DNA of 64,000 bases from Branchiostoma floridae (Eukaryota > Chordata > Leptocardii > Amphioxiformes > Branchiostomatidae): NCBI RefSeq assembly GCF_000003815.2, contig NC_049987.1, forward strand, positions 12,828,700 through 12,892,699, in the 5' to 3' direction. Position 1 is the first letter of the stretch, and every line of letters begins with the position of its first letter. Shown piece by piece: positions 18,622 through 38,647 of the stretch. The notes beneath the pieces are model-generated. The model saw nothing but the letters and a program-made list of their open reading frames with translations. It did not search any database and was not told where the DNA came from. A program made the position numbers and the translations under genes.

Positions 18622-21600
18622 CTAATATAGTATGTTGTCTTCGTGCTGATTTGCGCGCTCTCTCACTTCTGGCTCATCCTTCTCATACGACTGGTTTACG
18701 TACTCTATCCAGTTTGCCATTTCTTTGTTCATCAACGGGTTTTCATTGCCGATGGCTGCGTTATGCGAAGGGGAGGATTGGCGAGCACTGGCAATAGCAA
18801 GTGTTCCAGGCTCTGCCAATGTGGCAGTTGTTGCATAAGCTGTATCGTCAACCTTCGATGTACTTCCATGCTTTTCAAATCGTTTTCCTAGCGACTTCTT
18901 AGGGCCCAGGAAAGTCAGGACTACAGGCAGTATGACAATACCATGCATAGCACCAAACAGCATTACCAGAAGCATTGTTTTGAAAAAGGTCCGGAAAATG
19001 TAGCTTGTGGAGAAGGCAAGAGCAAGAATGCCAAGGATGGTGGAAACGGTGCTCTGTACGATTGGCATGCCGATGGAATATAGAGCAAATACCGAGCGCT
19101 CATTTCTCGACTCTCCCTGTCCCGTTACAAAGGCGTACGTTATGTGGGCCGAAAAATCGACAGAAAAGCCGATACACATGATGATGTTTATCATAGAAAC
19201 GCTGTCCAAGTTAACACCCCACAGAGTCATGAAACCAATAACGCCGGCGTCGATAGAAGCTATGGTGAGCGCGATCCACAAGGAACAGATGGGATGAGGA
19301 ACCAGAAGTAGGGAGACCACTAACATAGATAGGGTGGCTATGCCGATATTTTGTAAGGTGTTTGGAAGAACTGCTGTGTATTGGTCATAAAAGATGAATG
19401 CAGGATGGAACACAGTCATCTGAAATGGGGCTTCTGCGGCCAGACGCCTCATATCCAACATCATGTCTCTCTCACGATTCGCGGTGTTGGTGTTTTTGGA
19501 CTGAACAAAGAAGCGGGATGACAATATTTTTGTTTTATTGTCGTTAAACTCTATGTCAAGCTGATAGCGATCGAACCAAACGGTTGCCAGAAACTGGTCT
19601 TTCAGGATAGTGATAAACCTTTCAGAGCCTGGAGTATTTGGGAGGAATGGATGCCCTCGAAGAAACATTGTGTAAGCGTTCAGCCATGAATCGGTATTGT
19701 TTGAACCAAAGGTGTACTCGCTGTTTTCAAAATTCTGCAGGGTGTCAGAAATTTGCTGTTGGATTGTGAGATTTGAATAATCTACCTCTTCTGTCAGAGT
19801 GACCATTACCTGTGGTCCATACGTCTTGAAATATTCATCCTCTAAGTCATAGAATTTGACAATATAAGAATTGTCGTCTGCTAGCGACTGAAGGCGCAGT
19901 CCTTCGCGCAGCTGTGTACAACCCCAGATAGAGACGGCAAGGTACCCTAGGAACAGTATGATAACGACTACTTTGACAAAACCAGTCGTCAGAAATGGTC
20001 CGAAGTACTTTTTAAAGAAAAGCATTAAAAAGTGATCCCTTTCTGGCTCCTGATCTACGATACCCTGGTCCAACTCTGTACCAGTTACCCCTCCCGCGCA
20101 AAACAGCCTGAAACAGCCAGATCTGTGCTCAGCATCTTTCTTGGTCGGAGCGCGCAAGCATGTAGCCCAATGGAGATTCTTATTTTCACGGTAACCGAAA
20201 ATCGCCATGCACGCAGCAAAGAAGGTTATCTGATAGATATAATCAAAAACCAAAGCTACACCGGTAAATATACAGAATATCTGGACAGAAGGGAAGAAAG
20301 TTATAGCACCGATGCCGAATGCTAGCGCGTCAGTGATGCTGGTGATTGTTATGGACATGGCGGCCTCTCCCAGTGCCTCGGACATGCGTCGCTCCACGGA
20401 ATGGCGTGGGTTGGTCTTGCGCCATGCAGCAACCATGATGAACATGTCGTCGATGCCAATCCCTGTTGGCCAAAAAAACAACGATGAGAAAATACACATA
20501 GACGATACACATAGATGAGAAAATAACACATAGATGACTGCATTTGAAAAATATGAGAGAAAGGCCAGACGGGCATTGAGATTCAAATAAATTCATTCCT
20601 ACATACATGAGCTGCAAAAATATATGTAACATTTAAAGTGATATTTCATAAACCCCTCTCCTAATCTAATGCACACCATCATTCATACACGGTCACGGTA
20701 CAAGTGCACACGCGGGTTGCACAAAGTTGGACTTACCAAGGCAGAGAAATGGCATAGAGGCCACGATACTAATGAACTTCACTCCGCAGAAGAGGACGAG
20801 GCCCATGGAGGAGACGATTGCAAGGCCGGCCGACAACACGCCGAGCATCCCGAGCCAGGGTTTAGCGCGTACGGCGTCTGTGTCCGCGCAGGAACACACA
20901 GCGAACGTGATGATGATACTGAATGTGATGCTGAAGAGAGGGATGATTCCGTTTGTCACTGAGTTCAGTTCGTTCGCCCGACTTTGGGACGTGTACATGG
21001 CTACGTCTATGTCCGTAGATGTGAAAGTAGGCACTTCTGCGAGGAAGGCTTCCTCCCACTTAGCGCTGATAACATCGTTTACTTGTTCGCTGTCGTCCCA
21101 ACGGACATAGTAGTGAAGTTGGAGGGCTTCGGCAGACTCGACCGTGTCTTCCGTACCGTCAACAATGGTGACACCGCCAAGCTGTGTTCCAAGAAAGAGT
21201 TGCACTCCCAATGGACTGAAGGATGTCGGATAGAGAATGGTGGTGTTTTGAACTTGGCTGGCATTGTAGTCGACAAGTTCAAGGAACTCGTTGCTGTCAC
21301 ATTTCCCCTGCCACGCAGCACACAGGTCTTCATAACGGTAAGTCTGTCCCTCGTGATCGACAGAAATATTGTTGAGCACAAACTCGTGTAGTCGTAGGAC
21401 CTCTTCCATCATACTTTGCTGGAGAATGTTACTTTTGTCTTTGGCAGTCACGATAACTCGACCGAAACGCCCGAAAACGGCAAGCCTGCTTTGCTGAAAG
21501 TTGTCCGTGACGTTTGTGGAGAAATGGTCCTGTATGACTGATCGCTCGGTCTTGGCTTCCCCGTTTGTCGGTGTGAACAGGTACTCTACTCCGGATTCTT

Positions 21601-21748
21601 GTTGGGTTGGGAGTAAGTACATGCCTGACGCCAAACCTCCCGCAACCAGAATCGGGATGATGAAGAAAGGTAACGGATAACGGGCCACCAGCCCGCCATA
21701 ATGTTCAAAAAGTCTGCGCAACCGGCGCTCAATGCAGTCATATGCCAT
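18622..21748 (-). CDS. Patched domain-containing membrane protein (PTCHD3-like, RND superfamily)
   Basis: Two exons on the minus strand, 21748-20737 and 20462-18622, joined in phase 1 (CTTG|gtaagt ... acag|GGATTGG) to give 950 residues. An N-terminal transmembrane helix (about residues 26-46) precedes a large extracellular loop with N-glycosylation sequons. A sterol-sensing-domain-like helix bundle follows from about residue 265. The RND signature GIGIDDMF is split across the intron. After a second helix and loop comes the second-half motif GFSVDFSAH within the C-terminal bundle, then a charged cytoplasmic tail. Patched/NPC1/Dispatched relatives move sterols or lipids using a cation gradient; the substrate here is unknown. 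The gene is divergent from the polyketide synthase 1.8 kb away. The start is the first ATG of the open exon; an untranslated upstream exon is possible. Confidence 0.92.
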
Positions 21749-23203
21749 GTTGCGTTCCTCCGTAGATCTGAAATGCGCCGTATGAAAGTCAGAACTTATC
21801 CCTTCCTATTTTCAACATGACCTAAGACAGCAGTTGACCTGGCAGCACGACCGTACAGAGACTCTCCATTTATTTGTGTGTGCAATGTGCAAACAGTGGG
21901 AAAATTGTATACGAACATGGGCCTAGAACAATCGTGGCCATTATGCTGAGCCAAAGCAAACTTCCTTGTTGACCAACCACGATAGTTACTATGCTAACAC
22001 CTGCGTACGGCGACGGGGAAATTGCCTTTCATACCTCCCAAGTCCCAATTGGTGATCAAGAAACTAATAAAGCTGTCTATGCTTTTTTGTTTATAGTTAT
22101 GGTTATGGTTAGATATCATTTTTCAACGAGGTAGCATGACTGTAAAATAGTAGTGTGTAGTGTACCATGTAAGTCATTCAGATAATGCTCGTGAGGATCA
22201 ATAATAATAGCCTGTTTTTGTCGACTTTGGATACGACCAAAATAATCTGGTATTAGCTCTGACCATACGTAACACTGTTAAGTTGACACGCATTTATCGA
22301 CCTAGTGAAGAATAACTATCGTCCCGACTAAAGCAGGGCCAGGTTAATCAAATTCTACAGTATTGATCTGATACGCGTTGGACTTTCATGAGTGAAGATT
22401 ACACAACGATTGCATCAGGTACAATGTGTGTCAAATAACGCGTATTAAAAGCTATGTAAATCAGTGTACTAATCTAATATCACTCAATACACATTAGTGA
22501 CTAATGACTTTTCGATAAGTGTGATGGGTTTTTAACGTGCTTGATTTGTAGCTCTCCTCAAAACACGGGACCTCCATTTAACCTCTTAACTGCCGAAGCT
22601 AGGTACTCATTTTCATCTCAGTGAAGTCAGGAAAGTTAGACAGTGTAAAGTGCCTCTCCCAAGGGCACAAGATTGGTGGCACATCAACGGATTTGAATCC
22701 AGAACCTCTGGGTTACAAATTGCCTCTGCGGATTGCTTCCACGACGCCACTATAATAAAGACTTACAGCTACAGTAAGACTACTGAATGTGACTCGAGAA
22801 GGCAAATCATCACAAAACTGTGGGAACAAGCAACCAAAGCTCACTCCTTCATACAAGCTGCCCAAGGTGAGCGGCTAACAAGGCAAGGAATGCCGACGAA
22901 ATGTAGCATTAACCCATGACGGGCGCCACCTCGAGCTCAGCTACTGAATGTCCGATCGATTAGCCGCCACAGTGTTGCCATGCATTGGTATACTCAGGGC
23001 AAAATGTTCAAACGACTTTTCCTATGATCCAAGTAAAAGATTGAAAAAAAAAGTGATTGTGTTGTGTGCCATATGAACTAAGGAACGCCCAGTGTACAAA
23101 TTGGGCTTGAATGATTGATTGTCTTTGTCGTATAGGGTAGATAACAATCGTTTCCTTGTCGTTCTGCTGACTAAGTATGTAAATAAGCCCCTGTCTTTAA
23201 ACG
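21749..23203. promoter_or_regulatory. Divergent intergenic region between the RND gene and the polyketide synthase
   Basis: Separates two head-to-head genes. It contains a tRNA-derived SINE-like block (22540-22751). No TATA box is seen on the minus-strand side. Short open frames here are not supported as genes. Confidence 0.45.
22540..22751 (-). mobile_element. tRNA-derived SINE
   Basis: Read on the minus strand it begins TGGCGTCGTGG, like an A box. A B-box-like GGATTCAAATCC follows, then CTTGGGAGAGGCACTTTACA. This order is characteristic of SINEs common in marine invertebrates, recalled from general knowledge. The 3' end is indistinct. Confidence 0.6.
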
Positions 23204-23523: not shown

Positions 23524-26500
23524 ATGATGGACGAAGAGGTGGCGATTGTCGGCCTGTGGTGCCGCTTCCCGTCGGCTGAGGGTCCGGACGAGTTTTGGCG
23601 GGTGCTGGAGAACGGAGAAGACTGTATGCGAGAGATCCCACCCGAGCGCTGGAACCAGGAGGCCTGGTACAACCCCGATAGAAACACCCCTGGCAAGTCG
23701 TTCGTGGAACGCGCCGGCTTCGTAGATGAGTGAGTAAACGAAATATTTCTTCACTACTTTGTAGTGATTATGTCAGGATGAGGAAAGTCCTGCAACGTTT
23801 TCACACATTGATGGGCTAAAATGTTCTTTGTTGTGCTATACATATGATTCTTTCATAGTTCAGATGTAAGACCTACGACACATTTCCAAACGTTTAAACC
23901 GGCATCCGGCCGAGCAGCTTTCGGGAACGACAAGTATGATAAAAAAAACCCACCAAACTACACAAGACGTAAAGAAAATAGCCGTGGGCATTATGCGTAT
24001 ATATTTTTTGCGGTATATATTCTATTTTGCGTTTCCACAAACAGCCCGGCTGGGCCCCTGTTTGGAAATGTGACATTAGCCAATCAATCAAGACTCTAGA
24101 CCTTCAATTCTGCGATTTTAGGAGGGGGTAGTTTTATTTTCGACTGTAAAGTCCCAGTCACACATAGAGCACGCGCTTTACCGCGATGAGGATTTCATGC
24201 ACGGGAATAACACCGTGCGCCGCATGGGAGAAATCGGTATCCTGTGTATATTTCTTGGTCTTGTAGTTTAATAATTCTTCTTGCAGGGTTCAAAAGAACC
24301 GGCCACAACACCGCCCCACTTACATGGGCACTTTTTTGTGAGCCATTCACATAAGCAGGCCTGTTGCACGTTTCATGAGTTAATATTCCAAACTTTTTGC
24401 GCCTAGTTAGGGTTTTTCACCAGCAGGAAGACATTACAGTTTAGCATTCATTAGCTAGGTCTACATTTGGTCGGTTCAAGAAGCAAAAAAAAACGTTCAG
24501 GTGGCTATTCACAAGTGAAAAATTGTTTGAACATCGCAGGACGCTCCGCGATGGCTGATTTTACCTACGATTTACTTGCAATTTACCGCGATCATCGTGC
24601 GATTTACACTGAGTATGCTATCCGGATCATAAGGTTGACTCTCACTGCACTTGGGGCACCGGTGAGGCACTGCGGGGTTCGAAGATGACTCAACGAATTT
24701 CAGAGATAAAGAACGAATTTTCTTCCGTTCAGTGTGTATCATGTTGTTTTTTAAGTCATACTTTTACGTATTACGCATGTCTAAATTATAAAAAAAATAA
24801 CAAAACTGTACCGCAGTGAACGAACCCCGCAGTGCCGCATCTACGCCTAAGCAAGGTGAAAGTACGACAAGTTGGTGGTTGCTTATACATAGATTATGAT
24901 AGATGTAATCATGTAATATTTATGTTGAATATTTAAAATGTAAAAGAGTTTGGGGTAATGGGTCCTTCCAGTTAGGTGCTCTTGTAGCACTAAGCTATAT
25001 CATAGAATCGTCACAGAAATCCTTTTTGTCGGCCGTCAATACATGTATTATATGGACTCACTGTATAATAAGATCAAATCATCTAAAGTAGAATTAATAG
25101 AGCAATAGACCAATTAAATGTTGCAATTTCTGTGCTTCGATAGTTTTGATTGTCAGCTCCCCTGTAGATATATACCAAAATGCTGGGCCACGCCGTGCGC
25201 TTTGATTTTCGCTGGGTCCATTACTGAATCATTAAGACCTTTATTGTACAATTTTGCCCAACCGAGCTAAGTGCAGGTCACACAACAAGTCAAAACATGT
25301 CTACATATAAAAGTATCACAAATCGTGTCCGACACAGCAGAAGTTCGGCTTCAGATGGTTGGTTTGTCAAAACGCATGAGGAATATAAACTTGTCAGTGC
25401 TACCCATGTGTCTAAAATGAGGGAATCTACTTACTATGTAACTAAATCGAGTATTTCTATCATTGACATACATATCACAATCAACAGTGAAGTACACTTC
25501 ATCTTCTACCATGTTTGAAGTACGAAATTGGCAGAATCTTTGTTCTAGAGAAGTGCGGTTGTGCCTTCCTGATTCAATTTGCAGTTTGTGGCAATTGATT
25601 GTAAGTTTAGCGATGGTAGTTCTGTGGAGAATGTTTATAATTTTCAAATACTGCTCTTCGTTGTATGTGGACTTGAGTAGTCTGTACGTTCGGAGTTTTG
25701 TTTTTCGTACTTTATTATCATCATGAATTTTTGTTTGGAAATTCTGGAAATGAAATCCTTCTGTTCTGTACATGTCGTGTTTGATTTCCTGACGACAGGA
25801 TGGCTTCTGCGGACCATGTTTTTATAAATGGTTGAAGGAAAGGCGGCAGCAATTGGGCAAGTAGAGGTGCCTTTTGTTAATGTACAGCTACATTTGTGCT
25901 CAATCAATGCTAGCTAGTTTAGTCCACACAACTTTCGGCAGGTGTTATCAAGGGCCTCCGAGTTCCTTTTTTTACTTTGATATAATTAATTTGCGTCATC
26001 TATGTTTGCCCAGAAGCAGTTAAAACGTATACGTAAGCTTAGTTAGACCCCGCTTGGAATACGCATGTACAGCATTGGATCTACGCCACTGGTACTGTTC
26101 CGATTCAGGTCCAGAGGATCAGGTCCCGGTCCGGACCTGAAACTGGACCTAATTGTTTGTGAATACATGTACTTGTGAGTGGGTGATGCACAAAACAATG
26201 GTCCAATTTTCTACGAAGTAATCTACTGAGTATCTAGATCTGGCGGAGTATTACTGACTTTTCAAAATCCTGTCTTCACGGTAAACTCTGTAAGTTTGAC
26301 CATAGAAACTTGGTAGAAACCACTATAAACGCTGGTCTACTTCGCTCTTGTTATTTTTTAACCGGTTCGCCTCTTGCAACTTTCTACGTATACTCGGTTC
26401 AAAATCCTAATCTCCAAGCATATATTGCGGTGGCATATGATCGTATCATAAGCTGGGTAATGAGTTTAGCAGGCAGAGGACTTTCATTGGCCACGGTGTA

Positions 26501-29500
26501 TCTGTGGCAGGATATGCTAAGTATTAGTAAACTCAATCATACATATTGATTGTAAAATGGTCATGTAGTTACTGCATAAAGTAGCTGAATTCTCTGTATA
26601 GAACACATACATACAAACGCTACCCAAAATATAACCTTCTTTTCGCCAGGCAGTCTTACCACGAACTTAAAACCACCGCGAACATCACATTACAATATTT
26701 GACTATAGTGAACACTCCACTTTCCCGCTAACGCGAAAATAAATCCCCGCGAACTTACATGCATTTACAGTTTTCCTCTCCCGGTACAGTCAAACCTGTC
26801 TATAGCGGTCACTCAAGGGACTGGAGAAATATGGCCACTATAGACAGGTGGCCACTATAGAGAAAATGTAGATCAATTGACCATGAGCAAGCTACACATG
26901 ATTTCAGTTCCCACTAATCTTTCTCACCAAGTAACACTGTCTCGATCGGTAAATTCACCGACAAAGACTTGCACTTTAATGTTCAAGGCAAAAATACCTT
27001 CTGCTACCGCCAAAATGACCCTGTCAGTAACTCCAAATCCTTGCAAACTACAATTTCAAACTCGGTGCAGGGTGACATAAGGCTGCAGTATGGTTGCAAT
27101 AGGCAGTGTTTCTGTATCAACGGGACCGGAAATCGTGTGGCCATGGCCGCGTTGGACAGGTGGCCGCCAAGCCTATTTCTTAATCATTACGAATCCAAGG
27201 GACCGACAAAAAGTGGCCACTATGGGCAGGTGGCCGGTATGCAAAGGTGGCCGCTAATACAGGTTTGACTGTATATATTCCTTTCCTAGCATATTCCCGG
27301 TTAAAAATCGCGACTCGACCTTTTTCAACGTCACCGGTACCGCCCCTAACACCCCTCCCCAACAACTTAAACACGCCAGTGCCAATAAGGAAGCCGGTGA
27401 AGGAGGCTACACTGAGCGTAAGTCTGTAATGATGGCCCAAGCCTGTCACAATTGTCAGACAACAATTGTCACCTCACCTTGCTTCTTCCAATGCTTGTAG
27501 TCTTTCGTCCCATAGTTGGCAACATCGTCGGAAGCTGAATGCCTTACAAACCAGTAAAGCAGGGAAAAAGATAGAAGAGACCTTTGTGCGGGAGCAAACC
27601 AACCAGTAAAATAACCCCGGCGGAACCTATGTAAATATGTTTTGGCAATTAACGGCGAATCCAAGAACCCACTTGCCACACGATCACGTGCAACGCCGAA
27701 CTGCACTTTCGCCGATAACCTACAGGGGGTAGCACACATAACTTTACTGCTGTATGATGACAGGGAGTGCAGCTTGTCGCCTTCGTCATGCAAGAAGGGT
27801 ATGCAAACTGAACATTGAGTTTGTTGGGTCTGTTGAGTCTGAGGGTTTGTTGGGTCTATGTGTAGGTCAACAGCATATATTGGTGGGAAGACTAGCCGAA
27901 AAAAGATATGGCATCTAAGGAAAAGGTCACGATTTTCCCCACCAACCTCTACTTTTATTGGGAGAGATGGGTAGGAACATTTTTGTGTTTGCTCATATTA
28001 CAGAATTTTATAAACTACTGGTAGTGTAAGATTTAGTGAGGAGTTTGGATGTTTAGCCCCTACAAGGATGAGTTGAAAATAATAAACTCAACACACACTC
28101 TCGCCAAATATCTAAATAAGTAACAAGTCATGTACAGTTTGAATTTTCTTTACAGCTTTAGTTGAACAACTTTTGAAAACTTAAAGTAAATAAAAAATCG
28201 CACGCTTAAATGATTATACGTGCTTTGTATCTTATCTACCCAAAATTTGAGACTTAACAGGTGTGTGTGCGTCCTATGAAAGATCTGATTTCTTTTCTTG
28301 AAAAGAATCAATGCACCGCTCTAAGCCAGTTGGCTTACACATCCTCTGTGAAGCGCACGCATCATAACTACCGCCTTGCTTTTCCAGTCATGTCTCTCGA
28401 GCAACTTAATCTTGAGCTTCAGAAAGCACAGAAGAGTGTTTCTGGACTGAAAAATAGTGCAGGTCCGAAGAATGTGGAATGCATAACTCAAGAAGCCTTG
28501 AAAGGATCCTGATAAAATTTGATAGGTGGGTAGGGGTCAAGATAACGAAGGTCGAGTATGATAGTGGGCCCCCTAGCGGCTTCCTAAGGTACTGCAGCAA
28601 AACTTTAATTTTGACATCTCATGTTCTGAACATGCTGTGGTCGTGATTTTTGAGTGGTAGATAGCCTAAGTGATGACTTACATAATGTAATACTTATTAT
28701 GCAAATCAACAGCTAATTTGCATAATCAATGAGGAAAGTTCATAAATCCACTGAATTCCATGATAGGACTTTCAAACTTGTTTGCATTGTTTTTGGCTGA
28801 AATGTACTTAAGATCATTTTTACACTGACAAGCATGAAATTCTGATTGACCAGGGATGCTACCAGGTCATCTGTGATCAAGGTCTTGTTTGGGGTAGTAT
28901 TTGTGGATTTGTGAGGAACACAGTTCATGCAGTCATTTGCTATTGGCAGGGGTAGGCACTATTTAGTGATATATGAATAAGACCTTTAAGTCTTAAATAA
29001 AGCACAAAAAGGCATGATTCTTTGGCGAAGGGATGTGTTCGTCGAACTCCAGTTATTCTTAGGACGTTCGAGTTGGAAATAGTTGGGCCAGTTGTTCACC
29101 CGATCAAAGTTGTTGCTTTTTGTATCTCAGTTTCAAAGACTTCGACAACCGCTTATTCAATATAAGCGACCTTGAAGCATCTCGGATGGACCCTCAGCAA
29201 CGCTGGATGCTAGAGTGCTCGTATAAGGCCTTAGAGAATGCTGGCATCCCCCTGAAGAATGTGTACAACACCGACACCGGCGTTTTCGTTGGTAAGAGCA
29301 CACTAGCTGTGTTTCTTAACCTGGGTTGAAAACAATGAAAATTTAGATAACAAGTACAAGCCTCCTACTTGTCTCTAGCTTTTGAATTAATATCATTTCC
29401 ATTATCAAATTTTTATTACTTCATATACTAAAGTTAACACGGGTGAAAAGGAAGCAAAACGCTTATAAACACGGCATTGTTTCAAAGGTGTCATGAACTA

Positions 29501-32500
29501 CGACTACTACTGGAATTCCACATTGGACATGGCAGACGTATCCAGCAACACAGCGACGGGGGTTTCCATTCCTGTTGTTGCCAACCGGGTGTCGTACGCC
29601 TTCAACCTGACCGGTCCCTCCATGACCGTCGATACGGCCTGCTCCTCAGGAATGACTGCCCTACACCTCGGCTGTCAAGCTATTCGTGCAGGTTAGCTTA
29701 GACTCCTATGGGCCATACCTTTTCCGAATCATATTTGTTTAAAATTTGATAATATATTTCAAAACATGTACCAACTCAAAAGTATTGCAGAGTACACAAC
29801 ACAGTGTCAATTCACAACATCGCAAGTGCTAAATTAATTATTATATTGCCATTCACTTCTGATAAGCAGAATTGCATCACTTTGATGAGTCTAAATGGCT
29901 TCACGACAGATGGGCCATTGCCTCTTGTAGCTATTGCTGTCAGTGTTATCAGAATATGACTCCTATTCCTACAGATGTTTAGTGACTACGAATACCTAAT
30001 TAAGAGCTTGTGAGATGACAGGTTTTTTTTTATCTTGTACACAAAGTGCACCATTTATCTTATGATGCGGAGTCACACTAGTGTATACTTATGGCTCTCA
30101 CGATTCTAGCTGACAAATACGAATGGCTATCTCTTTCTCACAAAATTATCAGCCTACAGCGACTGTCATTGTCTGTGTGTGGCTCTCTACCAAAAGTGTC
30201 TGCTAACGGCTTAGAGAGCAATGGATTGCAAGAAATGAATTTTCGAAATATACGGACATTACTATTTCTCATTTTCATTTTTATAAAGTAACTGGTTCTG
30301 ATGCCTTTTGATACTCGTATATAGGTGACTGCACAATGGCAATATGTGGAGGTGTCAACTTCATCCTGAATCCTGGCATGTTCGTACAACTGTGCCGTGC
30401 CGGTATGGTGTGTCCTGACGGTCGCTGTAAGCCATTCTCCGCTGCCGCTAACGGCTACGCGCGGGGAGAAGGCTGTGGTGTCGTCATCATCAAAAGTTTC
30501 AGAAAGGTAAAGGATGTATGTTGTCGCTGTACGTATTGGGCAATGTACAGATCTCATGATTCACCTAATAGCGCCTAATCATGCTTATTTTGCAAGGTGC
30601 TTACACCTACAGTCAGGTATCAGCGTCAATATTTCTCTTGTATTTATCTACTACACAGTTGGGCACTTTTAAGTTTAAAGACAATGTTTTATGATAAAAA
30701 GATTAATCATAGTTGTATTTGTCACATTGATAGCTGGTGGTGTTTAAAGTATCTTGCGTGGATAAATGTGTATTAATTTTGCATGGCCTCAAAATTCTGG
30801 ACATACCCTCAAAATCAATCATGCGTCCATGCCATGATATTGCGTTACATCAATGCTAGCATCTACGCCTCAGCTATCAACTGTAGAAGTCGACAATCGT
30901 TGTTGATTAAGATTTCCTGCAGGCGTTGGTGGACAAGGATTACATCTGGGCCACGATCAAGACAGGAGTGAACCAGGACGGACGGTCTGCGATTCCCATG
31001 ACTTCCCCATCCCCGGCCCAACAGGAACAGCTGATACGCCGACTGTACGAACAGCACAATGTAGATCCCCGCCATATCGACTACATAGAAGCACATGGTA
31101 CAGGTACGCCAGTTGGAGATCCAGTCGAGGCCAGGAGTCTTGGAAAAGCCATCGGGCAATCGCGGGACAGCTCAGAACCACCAGTTCTGATTGGCTCAGT
31201 GAAGAGTAACTTTGGCCATCTTGAGTCGGCAGCGGCAATGGCGGGACTTATCAAAGTCTTACTGATGATGAAGCACAAAAAGATTGCGCCGACGCTACAC
31301 TTCAACGAGCCCAATCCAAACATTGATTTCGAAGGCCTAAAAATCAAAGTTTGTACAGAGCCCATTACCTGGTCCTCACGAAACAAAGATAAGATGATGG
31401 CATGTGTAAATTCCTTTGGTTTCGGGGGCTCAAACGCGCACGCCATACTTTTCTCTGAACCGTCTTCTGGGGCAACAGAAGAGCTGGGTAGGCATGAAGA
31501 ACCAAACATCATCGCTGTGTCTGCCAATGGCAAGGAATCTTTGCAAGCGTCTATGAAAGATCTGATTTCTTTTCTTGAAAAGAATCAATGCACCGCTCTA
31601 AGCCAGTTGGCTTACACATCCTCTGTGAAGCGCACGCATCATAACTACCGCCTTGCTTTTCCAGTCATGTCTCTCGAGCAACTTAATCTTGAGCTTCAGA
31701 AAGCACAGAAGAGTGTTTCTGGACTGAAAAATAGTGCAGGTCCGAAGAACATAGTTTTTGTCTTTTGTGGAATGGGCACTTTATGGGAGGGTATGTGTAT
31801 TGAGTTAATGGCGAAAGAGCCCCTTTTCAGTCGTAAGGTTAAAGAGGTTGATGCAATCTTCAAAACCATTGCTGGCTGGTCTCTGGTCGACAAGCTTCGG
31901 AATGTGAGGAACTTTGACGATCCTGCTGTAGCACAGCCAATAATATTTGTTTGCCAGGTTGCCCTGTTTCATCTGTTGATGACTTGGGGGATTGTGCCTG
32001 ACAAAATTGTTGGCCACTCTGTTGGAGAGGTAGCAGCGGCTTGTTGTGCAGGCGCCCTTTCTTTACCAACTGCCGTTCGGGTCATCTACCACAGGGGGCG
32101 TTTGCAGAGTGAGGTGACTGGCGGCAAAATGCTGGTAGTCGGCAACTATGATGTCAGAAAGGTGAACGATTGCTGCCAGAGATTTACAGGCAAAGTTTCT
32201 ATTGCAGCAGAAAACAGTGGGACGTCATGCACAGTGTCAGGTGATGCAGATGCTGTAGATAGTCTGCATCGGCTTTTAGATAGAATCAACACAGAAGAAG
32301 AAGAGGGAAGACTCTTCATTCGAGAGCTCAACGTCAGGTCTGCGTATCACAGCCATCACATGGACCCCATCTGTAGCAAGCTGCGAGAAGCGCTCCATGA
32401 TATCAAGGCGGCGGATCCCACAGTTCAAGTGCTGTCCACGGTTACTGGTGATTTGGCTCCCAAAGATTTTGCTTCTGAAGCATACTGGGCAAAGAATGTT

Positions 32501-35500
32501 AGATGCCCAGTCATGTTTAACTCAGCTATGAAAAGGGCAATTGACACAAAGGCCCGCAACATTGTAGTGGAGATAGGACCGAGGCCGGCACTTCGTGCTA
32601 ATATCAAAGAGATTGTAGGTGAGGCTGAATTGACCCTGGTTGCCTCGTCAAGGCCAAAGCAAGAACACGCTTGCATTCTTCAGTGTCTCTGTGACCTATA
32701 TCAAGCTGGCCTAGATCCTCAGTGGAAGGCGTTCTTTGATGAGGATGAAGTCTATGCCCCCCTACCAGTACCTCGCTGTCATCTGAACAGGCAGTCCTTA
32801 TGGTTTGATCCAGAGGCCGGGATCTCTCTGCGACAGGAGAATGACAGCAAAGCAAGCTTAGTCCAGTCACACTTGAAAAGGCTGTCTAACAGTCCTCCGA
32901 GTTTTCGGTGCTCCATCAGTAATGCAACGCACCCCTATGTATATGATCATAGATTGCAGGATATGGTTGTTGTGCCTGGTGCCCAGTATGTAGATCTCGG
33001 TTTAGCTGCTTGCATGGAGGTCATGAATCCCCGCCAGCCACCGTCCCACTGTAGGCTGCAAATAGAGTTTCTGTCTCCAGCAACAATAGGGCGACATGGT
33101 GATAAAACCGACCTAGTTGTGAACGTCCACCATGACGAGACGTCACAAAATGTTACATTTGAAGAGAGAACCGATAGGGCAGTGCATGCAAGAGGGCATG
33201 TTGAGTATGACAGCCAGAGTCAGGATGTACTTCATAATGTCAACCTCGTCGCCATTCAAGAACGCTGTTCGTACAGACTACCAGAAGAAATACTCTACGA
33301 CGAATTCAAGAAAGTAGGTTTCCACTACGGTCCATCTCTATGCCAACTCAAGGACTGCCGGTATAGCGAATCATCCATGCACCCAGAGGCACTGTCTATT
33401 GTACACGTACCAGAGATTGTATCTCATGACATGCACAACTGCTGTATCCACCCTGCGCTGCTTGACTACGTATTGCAGTCTACTATCTTGCTAATGATCG
33501 ACGATGCCGACCACAAAGAAACGTTGCTGCCAGCTTCAGTAGGAAGTGTTGTCTCTGTGAAGCCTCCTGAACTCAGAATGTGGGTTTACCTTCGTCAGCT
33601 GTACAAAACAAAGGATGCATTGTGTTGCAATGGAGCGTTGATAGGCTCAGATGGGCAAGTCATTGTTGAGGCCCGAAACATCGTTTGTAAAATTCTAACA
33701 GACAAGAAATCCGTACCATTTTCTGACGTCACTTACACCATGGACTGGTTTCCATTTGAGTCCTGTTGTGAAGCACCAGAAGCGTCCATGTCTCAGCTCA
33801 AGTGCCTTGTCCTCGCAGATGACTGTGGCATCCTGGATAAAATGGGGCATCTCGTTAGTCCTGACTCTGTCTTAATCTACCAGAGTGAGTTTACAAGACA
33901 AGATTTTAGAGTGAACAGCAGTGTCTTGCCCTCCATCATACAGCAAAAGGACGAGTCCATCGAGTTCGACCAGATAGTTCATGGCTGGGGCATAACCCTG
34001 TTAGAGGATTCCACAACCAATGGGGCGGCATTGGCGTCAGCTGTGGAAGTCTCCTGCGAGAGTCTGAGACAATTGTTGAAGATGTTGATAGCAATGGACA
34101 AGAGCATTCCGGTAAAGGTCGTCACAAGAAATGCTCAGCTGCCAATGTGGGATGGACTCACCGAAGCCCAACAAGTGAATGTCATCGATTTGGTTGGACC
34201 GCCACTTTGGGGTCTCGTTCGTGCTGTGCTCCGCGAACGGGCATACTTAAACTGTCAGCTTGCTGAGCTAGCAACTGGAACGGACGATGAAATCCTCACT
34301 CTCGTTCAGGAAATGACAACACCTGAGATGTCAGAGTTTACAGAAATCATGTTGGTGGGCAATAAGAAATACTACATTGAAATGGTACGATCCAACGTTG
34401 AGAAGGTTTCCTCCGTGCACAGGGTCAACGTTGCAGAGGGCGGAAGAAGAATAAAACTGCAAATGTTGGAGACAAGCCAACCGCAGAGTGTTAGGGTTAC
34501 ATATGATGATGATACCCCTTTGTTGGATGTCGGCTACCAGGTACCCCATGCTCAAATCAATGTATCTGCAATTCGCTTGCACGAAGATTATTTTGCGCCT
34601 GTGATAAAGCCAACAGAAAGCAGAGAAGCGGTACCATGGCTTGAGGACAGCAACTGTGCCCAAGACCTACATGCCCTAGACTTTTACGGAACAGTGGTTG
34701 ATGTGACCGAGAAATGTAAGATTAAGGTTGGGGATGTTGTTTTTGGTTGTTTTCCTGTTGTCGCCAGTTCAACTGTGTGTGTTCCTGTCTCTGTTTTGAA
34801 GAAAGCCTCTACTTTCCATCAGCTGGAGAATTTGCCTTGCCTGTCTTTGTTGGTGCTTGCTTGGGAAGTCTTGGCTTGTGTGAAGCCTAAACAACGTGTT
34901 GGTTATGTTGGTGGAACGGTCTGCCCGACGTTTGGCTGTGCATTGGATGTCATAGCCACCAAGTTGAAAGTGTCAGTGACAAAACGCCAAACCGCATGCC
35001 CTGATGAACAATACCCTCTGGTTATTGTTTGGGAAGTGGAAGCGTGTAAAAGCGCGAGGCAGCTGCAGGCTATGGTTGAATCAAATGGACAACTTATCAT
35101 CGTCAGTGGCAAAGCCGTACACCAAATCTCTTCATTGCATGCACCAACTATTTACAGGCCCGACATTCAGCTTAAGATGGTGAATACTTGCCTCCTATTT
35201 AGGGAGTCAAACCTCCTCAGGGTGATGCCTTCTGTGCTCAAGTTGTTGACATCGGCTGCAAAAAAACTGACAAGAAATGATCTTACTGCCCGATTCATTC
35301 CGTTGTCAGAGATTTCCCAATTGGGTATGCCTGGGGATTTGAATTCGGAAAACCTCAATAGGCACCCAGAGGACCACCTGACAGTAGTACAGTTTCAGTC
35401 CAAGACTGGTGTTTCCGTTTGTGTCGGCAGAAAGCAGCTCTTCCGTAAAGACTGCGCCTACCTTGTGGTCGGGGGACTCACTGGCCTTGGTATGGTGACA

Positions 35501-38500
35501 GTAAACTTCTTGGCTGAAAAGGGAGCTGGATATATTGCAATTATGTCCAGGAGTCCCCCCAACGAAGAAACCAATGACAAGATTTCGGAACTTGCCTCAA
35601 CAAAGGACACCAACGTAGTTTGCCTGCAAGCTGATGTTACCTGTTTAGACCAAGTTGAGGCTGCCATCCAGAAACTGGAGTCGACATTTCCAGATGTTCC
35701 CCTAAAAGGGATTTTCCACAGTGCAGTGGTTACAAGTGATGGCATTCTTATCAACCAAGACCACAGCCACTTTCAAAGAGGAATGGACGCCAAAGTAATA
35801 GGAACATGGAACCTGCACGTTGCAACTCAGCGTTTCCGACTTGACTACTTCGTCGCGTACTCATCCATCGCAGCGATCATTCCAAACGGCGGGCAAACAG
35901 GGTACGCGTCCGCTAACGCCTTCCTGGATGGCTTCATGTTCTACCGTAGACAGCAGGGACTCAGCGGCCAGACAATCAACTGGGGAGCACTCAAGCTTGG
36001 CATACTTGAGAGAAATGAGGCAATTGCAAAGAAGCTGGAGCAACAAGGGGTCCCAGCCATGGAGCGTCATGACATTGTCAAGTACCTCGAGGATTGCTTG
36101 ATGCTCAATGAAACACAGCTCATTGTAGCCCTGGTCAACTGGTCCCGAATAAAGAGGGTTCAAGCAGGGATGACAGATTCACGACGATTTCATACGATTT
36201 TTGAAAGCATTAATGGCAACGAACCGCAAGAGAATACTGAAGGATTTAGAATCGACATGCCTTCACTGTTGAATCAATCGAGTGAAGAACAGCTTTCTAC
36301 CCTGGAAACATTTGTCAAACATATGTTTGTACTGCTATTAAATGCAGATGAAGAGACAGCAAATGTCAGCTCATCCATCGTAGATCTGGGAATAGATTCC
36401 CACACGGCTCTTAGTGCTCAACAGCTCATCAAAGAGCACATTTGCGTAGATGTCCCAATTATCATGTTTCTCAGCCAGGAGACCACTTTGGGCTCGTTAG
36501 CAGTGGCAATTCAAGAAAATCTAGTCCAGAACCATTCCACCAAAGTCTGTGTGGAGAATACCAGTGAAGCAGAACATAGTAATGAGGGACTGGGCAAGAA
36601 CCCTCGCCTGACATATGAACAGAATGAATCAGAACCAGAATCAGAAGAGCCTTTGAGTCAAGAAGATGACGAAATGGAAGTTTCATCTGGGATGAGTCAA
36701 TTGTCTCTTGCAATGACAGATGTTTTCTATCAACATGTGAATAATACGATTCATGATCACGGTATCTCTGCCTGTGTACACAAGCTATTTGAGAAACAGG
36801 TAATGGATACACCGCAACGAGTGGCTCTCATTTTCAAAGATACAAATGTGACCTACCAAGAGCTCAACAGGTCAGCGACAAGCATAGCACGGGAACTGCT
36901 GAGGCTACCACAGCGGAAACAACAGAGACACGATTATGTTGGAGTCTATCTGGAAAACACACCAGACTTATTGGCGACACTATTGGCCATTTGGAAAGCA
37001 GGTAAAATCGTTGTCCCTCTGAACATGGCACAGCCTAAGGGAAATATGACACATCTGATTGAAATGTGCAATATCCAGGTCATCGTCACTGATTTCTCTG
37101 CGCACACCTTGATATTCACAAAGCTTCCCAGATACACAGGCCATGTTATCACTGTTCCGGTAGAGCACAAGTTGGAAGATGATGATGATACTGTTCTCCA
37201 AAGGGTCCTGCTGCCGGACGCCCCTGCATTTTGTATGCACGAGGCGGACAATGGGCGACGAATAGTCCAAGGTCTGCATTCTGGCATGTTGAATCGCTTG
37301 ACTTGGATGTGGCACACATTTCCATTCAAAGAAGACGATGTTTGCTGCTTGAAGACTCCCCTTAGGCATCTCGATGCTTTTTGGGAGATTCTTGTCCCTC
37401 TCCTGAAAGGAGTTCCCGTTGTGATTGTGACAGAGCACATGCTGAAAACGCCGACAGAGTTTCTGCAGGTGTTGCGCGAACAGAAGGTCACACGACTTTC
37501 AGGTGTATCCAGAGGCTTTTGGGAGAGGCTCGTTGCTGTGGTAGAAAGAGAACCCCCTGAAGCACAGGTGTGTGTTAGACAGCTGTTCATGAACGCTGGG
37601 AATATAGACTTTTCTATTGTACATCAGGCAAGTGAAGCTCTTCACGCTGAAGAGGTGACAGTGATGCTCAGCTGCACGGCTGTCTATTCAGGAGTTGTAT
37701 ATTGCAGCCTCAAGCCAAATTGTGTGGAAGCAGACCTGTCTTTTGTACCTGGATACAATACAGAAGTATACGTATTGAATGAAGAACGACAACTGTGTGA
37801 GGTCAACCAGCCAGGTGAGCTGTGTTTGGCAGCACCTGGGCTCCCTTATCACGATGCCACTGTGAAAAGTAACAGGTTCACCTCTGCTGCTACCGAGAAA
37901 GTTGTGGCAACAGGAATCATGGCTGTGTTAACAGAACATGCAGAGATCCGTCTCCTTCATAGCGCAACCTTGCGAGAGAGTCAACCACAGCAGACCAGAC
38001 TGGCAAACGGCGTGAAAAGTCACCACATTCAAGAAATGATGAAAGGTAAGTGAATAAACAATTAAACGTTCCCTCTACGGTCATGTATGATATATGTACA
38101 TTAAAAAGTTGATGTATTGCAACAGTTAGATGATAATATCCTCACCAGTACATGAATATAATTTTCTATGGACGATGGTTGAAGAAATGCCAACTTTTTG
38201 TTTCAGGAAAGATCTTCAAGAAACGGACGACAAAGGCAAAGGCACACGAGCGCTACGTCCGGCTAGTGTTGCAGCAAAACGATATCCTGGAGGCGACCCT
38301 GAAATGGGGACCGTCTGAGAACCAAATATCCTCTAAACTGAACGTCCGCAACATCACCAACATCTATGCAGGTAAATATTTGAATAAGATACCTGTCTGT
38401 CTGATTGCATGTTCTATATTACTTTCTATATATGATATTTACATGTCACCATCTCAACTGCAGTAACGAATGGGTGATTTTGTATGTAAATTTAGCTTAT

Positions 38501-38647
38501 TTTTTACACTTCCTTGGTTGCATCTTGTCAGAGAGGTCCACGCTGGTCATCTCCACATGCCAAAGGACGTTCCTGTTCCAGACTGAGGAGGTAGAAGTCC
38601 TGCGCATGTGGACAGAGGGGCTGCAGTACCTGAGAAATCTTGTTTGA
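23524..38647 (+). CDS. Type I polyketide synthase with degenerate adenylation domain and C-terminal PH domain
   Basis: Seven exons: 23524-23729, 29131-29291, 29488-29691, 30325-30506, 30923-38045, 38207-38371, 38532-38647. All are GT/AG and phase-consistent, giving about 2718 residues. KS (1-430): DTACSSG Cys174, EAHGTGT His309, NFGHLES His350. AT: GHSVGE Ser617. DH: His927 in DHRLQDMVVVP (family Gly replaced by Asp) and Asp1099 in HPALLDYV. Next come a structural KR half (LWGLVRAVLRERAYL) and an MDR-like region without the GGVG cofactor loop, so ER is probably dead. KR: GGLTGLG, YSS and Tyr1912 in GQTGYASANAF, apparently intact. ACP: LGIDS, Ser2077. An acidic linker leads to an adenylation-like domain (about 2190-2620) missing its P-loop and YGPTE-type motifs, then a PLC-type PH domain (2627-2718). 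No thioesterase. The product is unknown. Confidence 0.93.
24667..24835. repeat. 15-bp perfect inverted repeat pair
   Basis: GCACTGCGGGGTTCG at 24667-24681 pairs with its inverse at 24821-24835 in synthase intron 1. Probably the ends or relics of a small MITE. Confidence 0.4.
26652..26770 (+). mobile_element. Truncated copy of the palindromic TA MITE
   Basis: Shares CGAACTTAAAACCACCGCG and the ATGCATTTACAG terminus with the copies at 12115-12339 and 58249-58439. The left terminus is missing. Confidence 0.65.
26787..27271. mobile_element. 485-bp TIR element with TA duplication
   Basis: Begins CAGTCAAACCTGTCTATAG and ends CAGGTTTGACTG, flanked by TA on both sides. The interior has repeated GGCCACTAT blocks. 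It shares termini with 59302-60859 and a fragment near 51901-51940. Tc1/mariner-like mobilisation is inferred from the TA site. It lies in synthase intron 1. Confidence 0.75.
28275..28472 (+). pseudogene. Perfect 198-bp duplicate of synthase exon 5 in its own intron 1
   Basis: Reads base-for-base identical to 31552-31749, the KS-AT linker starting MKDLISFLEK. After the match it skips 16 bp of the parent and resumes for nine more bases (TGTGGAATG). It keeps an open frame of 83 codons from 28261 but lacks the downstream AT domain. It is out of order relative to exon 2 at 29131. Either a very recent duplication or an assembly artefact. Confidence 0.85.

Follow-up and report, generated by a model that had tools for sequence, protein, structure and literature searches.

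A polyketide synthase gene of the lancelet Branchiostoma floridae with a degenerate adenylation domain and a PH-like C-terminal tail, and its paralogues

Animals have few polyketide synthases (PKSs), and little is known of how these enzymes off-load their products or where in the cell they are placed. The stretch of lancelet DNA analysed here (64,000 nucleotides, contig C9, 12828700-12892699; hereafter the window) raises a question on both points: does one gene join a PKS to a degenerate adenylation (A) domain and a C-terminal PH domain, and what would such a tail do for the enzyme?

Exons and catalytic domains of the window gene

Our analysis showed a gene of seven exons on the forward strand, with a summed length of 2718 residues as calculated from the exon coordinates. 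Exon 1 (23524..23729) holds the start ATG and the N-terminal part of the KS; it is supported by its frame, a GT donor and a homologous exon in the C5 and C9b paralogues described below. The KS is continued by exon 2 (29131..29291; frame, splice signals and paralogues), by exon 3 (29488..29691), which carries the active-site Cys in VDTACSSG, and by exon 4 (30325..30506; reading frame and splice signals). Exon 5 (30923..38045), lying in an open frame of 30911-38053, encodes the C-terminal part of the KS, the AT, DH, KR and ACP and the degenerate A domain. Exon 6 (PHa, 38207..38371) is 165 nt long with phases 1-1, as in five paralogues, while it has 162 nt in two; exon 7 with the stop codon (PHb, 38532..38647) encodes the C-terminal helix of the PH domain with its invariant Trp.

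The splice sites of this gene are all predicted from sequence. The junctions joining 38045 to 38207 and 38371 to 38532 are GT-AG, have phases 1 and 1 and keep the frame, and the stop codon ends at 38647. Splice signals, frame and stop agree with the original prediction that exons 6 and 7 are joined in phase 1,1 to exon 5, giving 2718 residues in total. As far as the sequence goes, the presence of a PKS, a degenerate A domain and a PH-like tail in one gene is confirmed.

Two minor features of the gene region were seen. Retention of intron 5 would lead to a stop at TGA 38051-38053, and an overlapping AATAAA starts at 38053, so a PH-less isoform is possible. A segment of 204 bp (28269-28472) within the intron that precedes exon 2 matches exon 5 (31547-31749) at 99.5% identity with a single gap, and may stem from a recent duplication of part of the gene or from an assembly artefact.

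The KS C-terminal part, the AT and the KR scored well above the Pfam cut-offs. The AT domain (31754..32623; PF00698, E 1.3e-57) contains GHSVG, and the KR (35456..35992; PF08659, E 1.9e-53) contains the active-site motif YASAN. The ACP (36317..36502) keeps the serine of GIDS; its Pfam match (PF00550, E 0.007) is below the cut-off, with 17 bits against 20.8, while that of the C5 paralogue (E 1.3e-4) is above it. Together with EAHGTG, NFGH and the Cys in exon 3, active-site motifs are present for the KS, AT, KR and ACP, which identifies the gene as an animal type I PKS. In the DH region (32858..33706; PF21089 and PF14765), HRLQDMVVVP replaces HxxxGxxxxP, with D where G is expected. No thioesterase was found in exon 5 by Pfam. 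The interval between DH and KR (34301-35500) matched no Pfam family and, judged by eye, looks like a decayed enoyl reductase.

PH-bearing PKS genes in the genome

The genome (513 Mb, 431 contigs) was searched with the tails, the A domains and the KS-AT region as queries. At least eight PKS genes with homologous PH exons were found on three contigs, a lower bound, since only the best candidates were scored. These are the window gene, C9:14.92 Mb (C9b), C5:9.37 Mb, C1:34.26 (C1a), 34.39 (C1b) and 34.45 Mb (C1c), C1:28.87 Mb and C1:15.88 Mb. The prediction, made from the window alone, that one gene combines a dead A domain with a PH-like domain at its C-terminus gained weight from the homologous PH exons of the seven paralogues.

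In six of the genes, the A exon ends in phase 1 (K-G or R-G across the junction), after which come a phase 1-1 exon of 165 nt and a final exon. In C1:28.87 and C1:15.88, a phase-1 end is possible for the C-domain exon, and the PH exon has 162 nt. Phase-1/phase-1 PH exons were readable in 8/8 genes. The splice models of the window, C5, C9b and C1a genes were the best by a simple in-house score. For C1b and C1c, the third-listed model was used, with the PHb acceptor as in C1a (the first-listed model adds nine residues), and for C1:28.87 and C1:15.88, where six models fit each gene, homology to the C1:34 genes decided the choice.

The architecture before the tail varies. The window and C5 genes read KS-AT-DH-KR-ACP-A-PH, and C9b is co-linear with them by tblastn. 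By Pfam, C1c reads AT-DH-KR-ACP-TE-C-A and C1b reads ACP-TE-C-A, each with a KS upstream, while in C1a KS and KR were seen by tblastn and the C and A domains by Pfam; all three genes retain HHxxxD and GHSMG. TE and C are present in C1:28.87 and C1:15.88, and an AMP-binding match is absent from the exon before the PH; a tblastn search of these two loci with C1c stopped 37 residues into the C1c A domain and resumed at the PH. A further paralogue, at C4:19.5 Mb and with 54% KS-region identity to the window gene, ends just past the ACP; in the 1.5 kb beyond, read by eye in three frames, neither A nor PH was seen. Altogether, PH was found in 8 of 17 PKS/FAS-like loci (22 rows, with same-gene rows merged and an in-window fragment excluded), the loci without PH other than C4:19.5 having been checked solely by the genome-wide PH searches. 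Other A-domain exons lie on C4, at 9.68 and 9.69 Mb (45-47% identity to a cyanobacterial A domain, one internal stop in each match), and at C6:5.6 Mb (27% identity); no link of the C4 and C6 exons to the PH-bearing PKSs was observed.

One genome holds apparent intermediates, namely TE-C-A-PH, A-PH, TE-C-PH and plain ACP ends, and these genes appear to record how an NRPS module was turned step by step into a non-catalytic tail. On the KS tree, the label 'A-PH' requires three or more changes and the state at the base is ambiguous; the tree is compatible with one origin of A-PH as well as with several. In this tree, C1_28.9 and C1_15.9 carry the label 'no group', given before the PH was discovered in them, and the C7 row was left out as too short.

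Two irregularities were noted around C9b. The reading frame of its A exon breaks after an NGDRTP-type repeat (about C9:14.9297 Mb), which could be an assembly error, an allele or decay, and the gene is adjoined on the opposite strand by an incomplete PKS copy that contains two in-frame stops (C9:14911431-14912894).

The degenerate A domain, the PH-like tail and known systems

Past the ACP, exon 5 runs into an adenylation-like domain, as had been predicted: PF00501 matched it with E 2.7e-36, and TIGR01733 (AA-adenyl-dom) over profile positions 1-330 of 409. The degenerate NRPS-type core covers 36788..37954 and ends at the hinge, with the P-loop, A5, A7 Asp and A8 all absent. The block NRLTWMWHTFPF, said to align with A domains, did so, and motif alignment bore out the replacement of the P-loop, YGPTE and Y-TGD motifs. 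The domain resembles cyanobacterial A domains, with which it has an NRFxWMWxxxPF block in common. In an AF2 model, analysed by VIA-align structure comparison, the fold of the A core is retained up to the hinge, where it ends; a canonical A fold was favoured in this prediction because the AF2 alignment otherwise consisted of bacterial relatives. The linker from the A core to the PH (37955..38045) has low model confidence, with pLDDT below 50 for model residues 426-451.

The catalytic motifs of NRPS adenylation (A3 P-loop, A7 Asp, A8 and A10 Lys) are lacking in the window gene. Among 79 bacterial relatives, TSGSTG is kept in 75-79, the A7 Asp in 79 and the A10 Lys in 75. In the A domains of the window gene and the five A-keeping paralogues, both the P-loop and the A7 Asp are found in 0/6. 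The A7 of C1b, misaligned (gap) in the motif alignment, was taken from a separate alignment and reads YITER. The A domain of C9b was read as two pieces because of the frame break in its A exon, and its A7 (VGTGL) was taken from the second piece, the first having a PNGD repeat at the A7 position. The A5 Glu (YSTLE) is kept in the three C1:34 genes. Judged by these motifs, the A domain is catalytically dead in all six genes that bear it.

Exons 6 and 7 encode KIFKKRTTKAKAHERYVRL...LRMWTEGLQYLRNLV. This tail matched four Pfam families, PH_12, Mcp5_PH, PH and PH_2, with E 3.8e-5 to 0.038, all under the gathering scores (the highest being 24.6 bits, where PH_12 requires 27). It also matched one unrelated weak family, and 94- and 96-residue tails matched two. 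When six tails were searched against Pfam, none passed a gathering score, and the C1a tail taken singly matched no family at all. In the search with eight tails, the best single-tail E was no better than 0.0015 for any family, and PF00169 was matched by 6/8 tails at E up to 1. Among nine shuffled or reversed tails, none matched a PH family, while a reversed tail reached E 0.017 with an unrelated family. A single-tail Pfam E near 0.01 is therefore at chance level, and the case rests on the agreement of the PH families and on the profile.

With the eight-tail profile, 8/8 of the listed PDB chains were PH or PH-bearing, the best being centaurin-delta 1 (E 1.1e-4); four of them are named PH in the search output, and the other four, 2cod, 2da0, 5c6r and 1qqg, are structures of PH-bearing proteins. 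With the six-tail profile, 7/8 listed chains were PH, and the eighth and weakest was an antibody chain. The five PDB alignments displayed cover the C-terminal half of the tail only. A single-tail phmmer search against PDB returned only a xylanase (E 1.4), PH being found only with multi-sequence profiles; PADLOC gave nothing, and NCBIfam on the tail one unrelated weak match. A Trp near the C-terminus is invariant in 8/8 tails. The resemblance to a PH domain was thus upheld by four sub-threshold PH families, the clean controls and the PDB profile matches, and the tail probably has a PH fold. The assignment to the PLC family was not supported: no PLC entry is among the Pfam or PDB matches listed for the tails, and the best structures are PH domains of ArfGAP type and of Plasmodium. 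The idea that the PH is a diverged C-terminal subdomain of the A domain was rejected, as hhalign gave a probability of 0.08% against the bacterial subdomain.

Centaurin-delta 1 (2cod), ARAP3 (7yir) and Plasmodium PfAPH (6f24) are among the best eight-tail profile matches; their similarity to the lancelet tails is weak (E 1e-4 to 5e-3) and lies in the C-terminal half. To our knowledge, no PH domain of ArfGAP proteins or PfAPH is attached to a PKS. Ebony is an active A domain, and the lancelet PKS A domains differ from those of the Ebony clade in being without catalytic motifs. In the available part of PMC10531068, Branchiostoma A domains that carry condensation domains are grouped with Ebony, and we infer that these are A domains of the PH-tail PKSs.

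The original prediction knew of no described PKS with such an architecture. In the papers searched, this held for the dead A domain and the PH, but not for the order before them, since lancelet PKS-AMP orders were already tabulated in 2015: the available part of PMC4604110 lists 13 lancelet PKSs, including KS-AT-DH*-KR-AMP, TE-C-AMP and TE-C forms, and in that part neither a dead A domain nor a PH is noted. In its Table 2, XP_002589799 (KS-AT-DH*-KR-AMP) has the domain order of the window gene up to the AMP-binding domain and may be this gene or its C5 or C9b paralogue; the AMP domain is reported there, whereas its catalytic death and the PH are not. XP_002598380 (KS-AT-DH-KR*-ACP-TE-C-AMP) matches the order of the C1:34 paralogues and XP_002610053 (KS-AT-DH-KR-ACP*-TE-C) that of the two A-less C1 paralogues, and for these the table leaves the dead A domain and the subsequent PH unremarked. 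Medaka OlPKS and sea urchin PKS2 are animal PKSs with KS-AT-DH-KR-ACP like the window gene; they end in ACP or TE, with A or PH unlisted in the same part of PMC4604110. For Saccoglossus, PMC4604110 gives the order KS*-AT-DH-KR-ACP-C-AMP.

The terms 'PH domain' and 'pleckstrin' are absent from the available parts of PMC4604110 and PMC10531068, and the available part of PMC10764717 gave no lancelet mention under the terms searched. Among the freely available articles listed by the literature searches, no title or abstract described a PKS with a PH domain. Within this scope, the dead A domain and the PH were not found in print, nor did the papers searched yield a description of a PKS placed at a membrane by a PH tail.

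Selection, proposed role and alternatives

Nei-Gojobori dN/dS among the C1:34 genes was 0.17-0.22 for PH, 0.32-0.39 for A, 0.18-0.31 for C and 0.19-0.22 for TE; these PH values rest on 5 to 14 replacement changes (C1b-C1c: 6 synonymous, 5 replacement), and with so few changes the differences are tentative. Between C9b and C5, the values were 0.31 for PH and 0.30 for the end of A, without a tighter PH. The PH is constrained, apparently more than A in the C1 genes and not in the C9b-C5 pair. Because of this constraint, and because two genes have the PH without A, the PH rather than the A domain appears to be the part maintained. Between C1b and C1c, dS is 0.026 in the A domain and 0.305 in the neighbouring C domain, which suggests that the dead A region has undergone gene conversion.

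PH domains bind inositol phosphates at beta1-loop-beta2. The first 21 PH residues, assigned to this segment by analogy, have a net charge of +5 to +8 in 8/8 tails; of 2357 windows of 21 aa in the exon-5 frame, none reached +6 and 0.2% reached +5. All eight tails have K7, H15 and a basic residue at column 17, and the phosphoinositide consensus K..R/K is seen in part. The basic stretch fits binding of anionic lipids. All C1-type proteins (5/5) end in -EDT[HRY]L, in an otherwise variable tail. This ending matches the pattern of class I PDZ ligands; DTRL is the C-terminus of CFTR, a chloride channel. A targeting tail is therefore favoured.

We propose that an ancestral PKS ended in an Ebony-like NRPS A domain that lost catalysis, and that the mobile C-terminal subdomain of this A domain, the carrier of the A10 lysine, was replaced by a PH from two phase-1 exons. 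The dead A core would be a dispensable spacer that is still retained, with selection acting on the PH. The PH would bring the PKS to a phosphoinositide- or anionic-lipid-rich membrane, where the ACP-bound chain, with no thioesterase in the window gene, would be handed to a membrane partner. For an iterative type I PKS subfamily of at least eight genes with a PH C-terminus, a dead-A spacer, membrane placement by the PH and hand-off, we estimate a probability of about 0.5. Many PH domains bind no lipid, and lipid binding and membrane hand-off by this tail are presumed here. More tentative, and to us somewhat improbable, is the wider claim of a lancelet class of membrane-targeted PKSs in which a dying A module became a phosphoinositide-binding PH tail and a PDZ ligand was added in one branch. 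If true, polyketides would be made and released at a chosen membrane. The PH tail common to eight lancelet PKSs gives a direct handle on enzyme placement.

The strongest alternative, though an unlikely one, is that the PH serves protein docking or as an intramolecular cap, filling the place of the lost A subdomain and stabilising the core or binding a partner enzyme, without lipid. PH folds often bind proteins, the PH begins directly after the A8/hinge region, and the PDZ-ligand-like ends of the C1-type genes point to protein contacts, whereas the basic beta1-beta2 stretch is conserved in 8/8 tails. Capping A is not the main role of the PH, given that two paralogues keep the PH without A.

The same two paralogues bear on the dead core. 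It may still hold an acyl or amine substrate or gate the ACP and be kept for that, which its retention in six genes, its dN/dS of 0.32-0.39 (<1) and the core fold kept in the model would suit; with the domain missing from two PH-bearing genes, and the P-loop and A7 Asp in 0/6, we consider this improbable. The earlier suggestion that the dead A acts as a scaffold or a release module is weakened likewise, as far as the tail would need it, by the PH kept without it.

Very improbable is a PH carried along by duplication and now functionless: all PH copies found sit in PKS genes of one genome and their similarity to any known PH is low, but the PH shows dN/dS of 0.17-0.22 in the C1:34 genes, has a conserved basic patch and is present where A is absent. 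A gene-model artefact, with exons 6 and 7 from another gene or fortuitous, was rejected: lancelet domain novelties and combinations are often prediction errors according to the available part of PMC4967905, and the splice sites are all sequence-predicted, but the eight-fold recurrence of a homologous exon pair with compatible phases on three contigs answers this caution, and PH dN/dS is 0.17-0.31.

Beside the PKS, a Patched/NPC1-like sterol-sensing gene was seen on the minus strand of the window (18622-21805).
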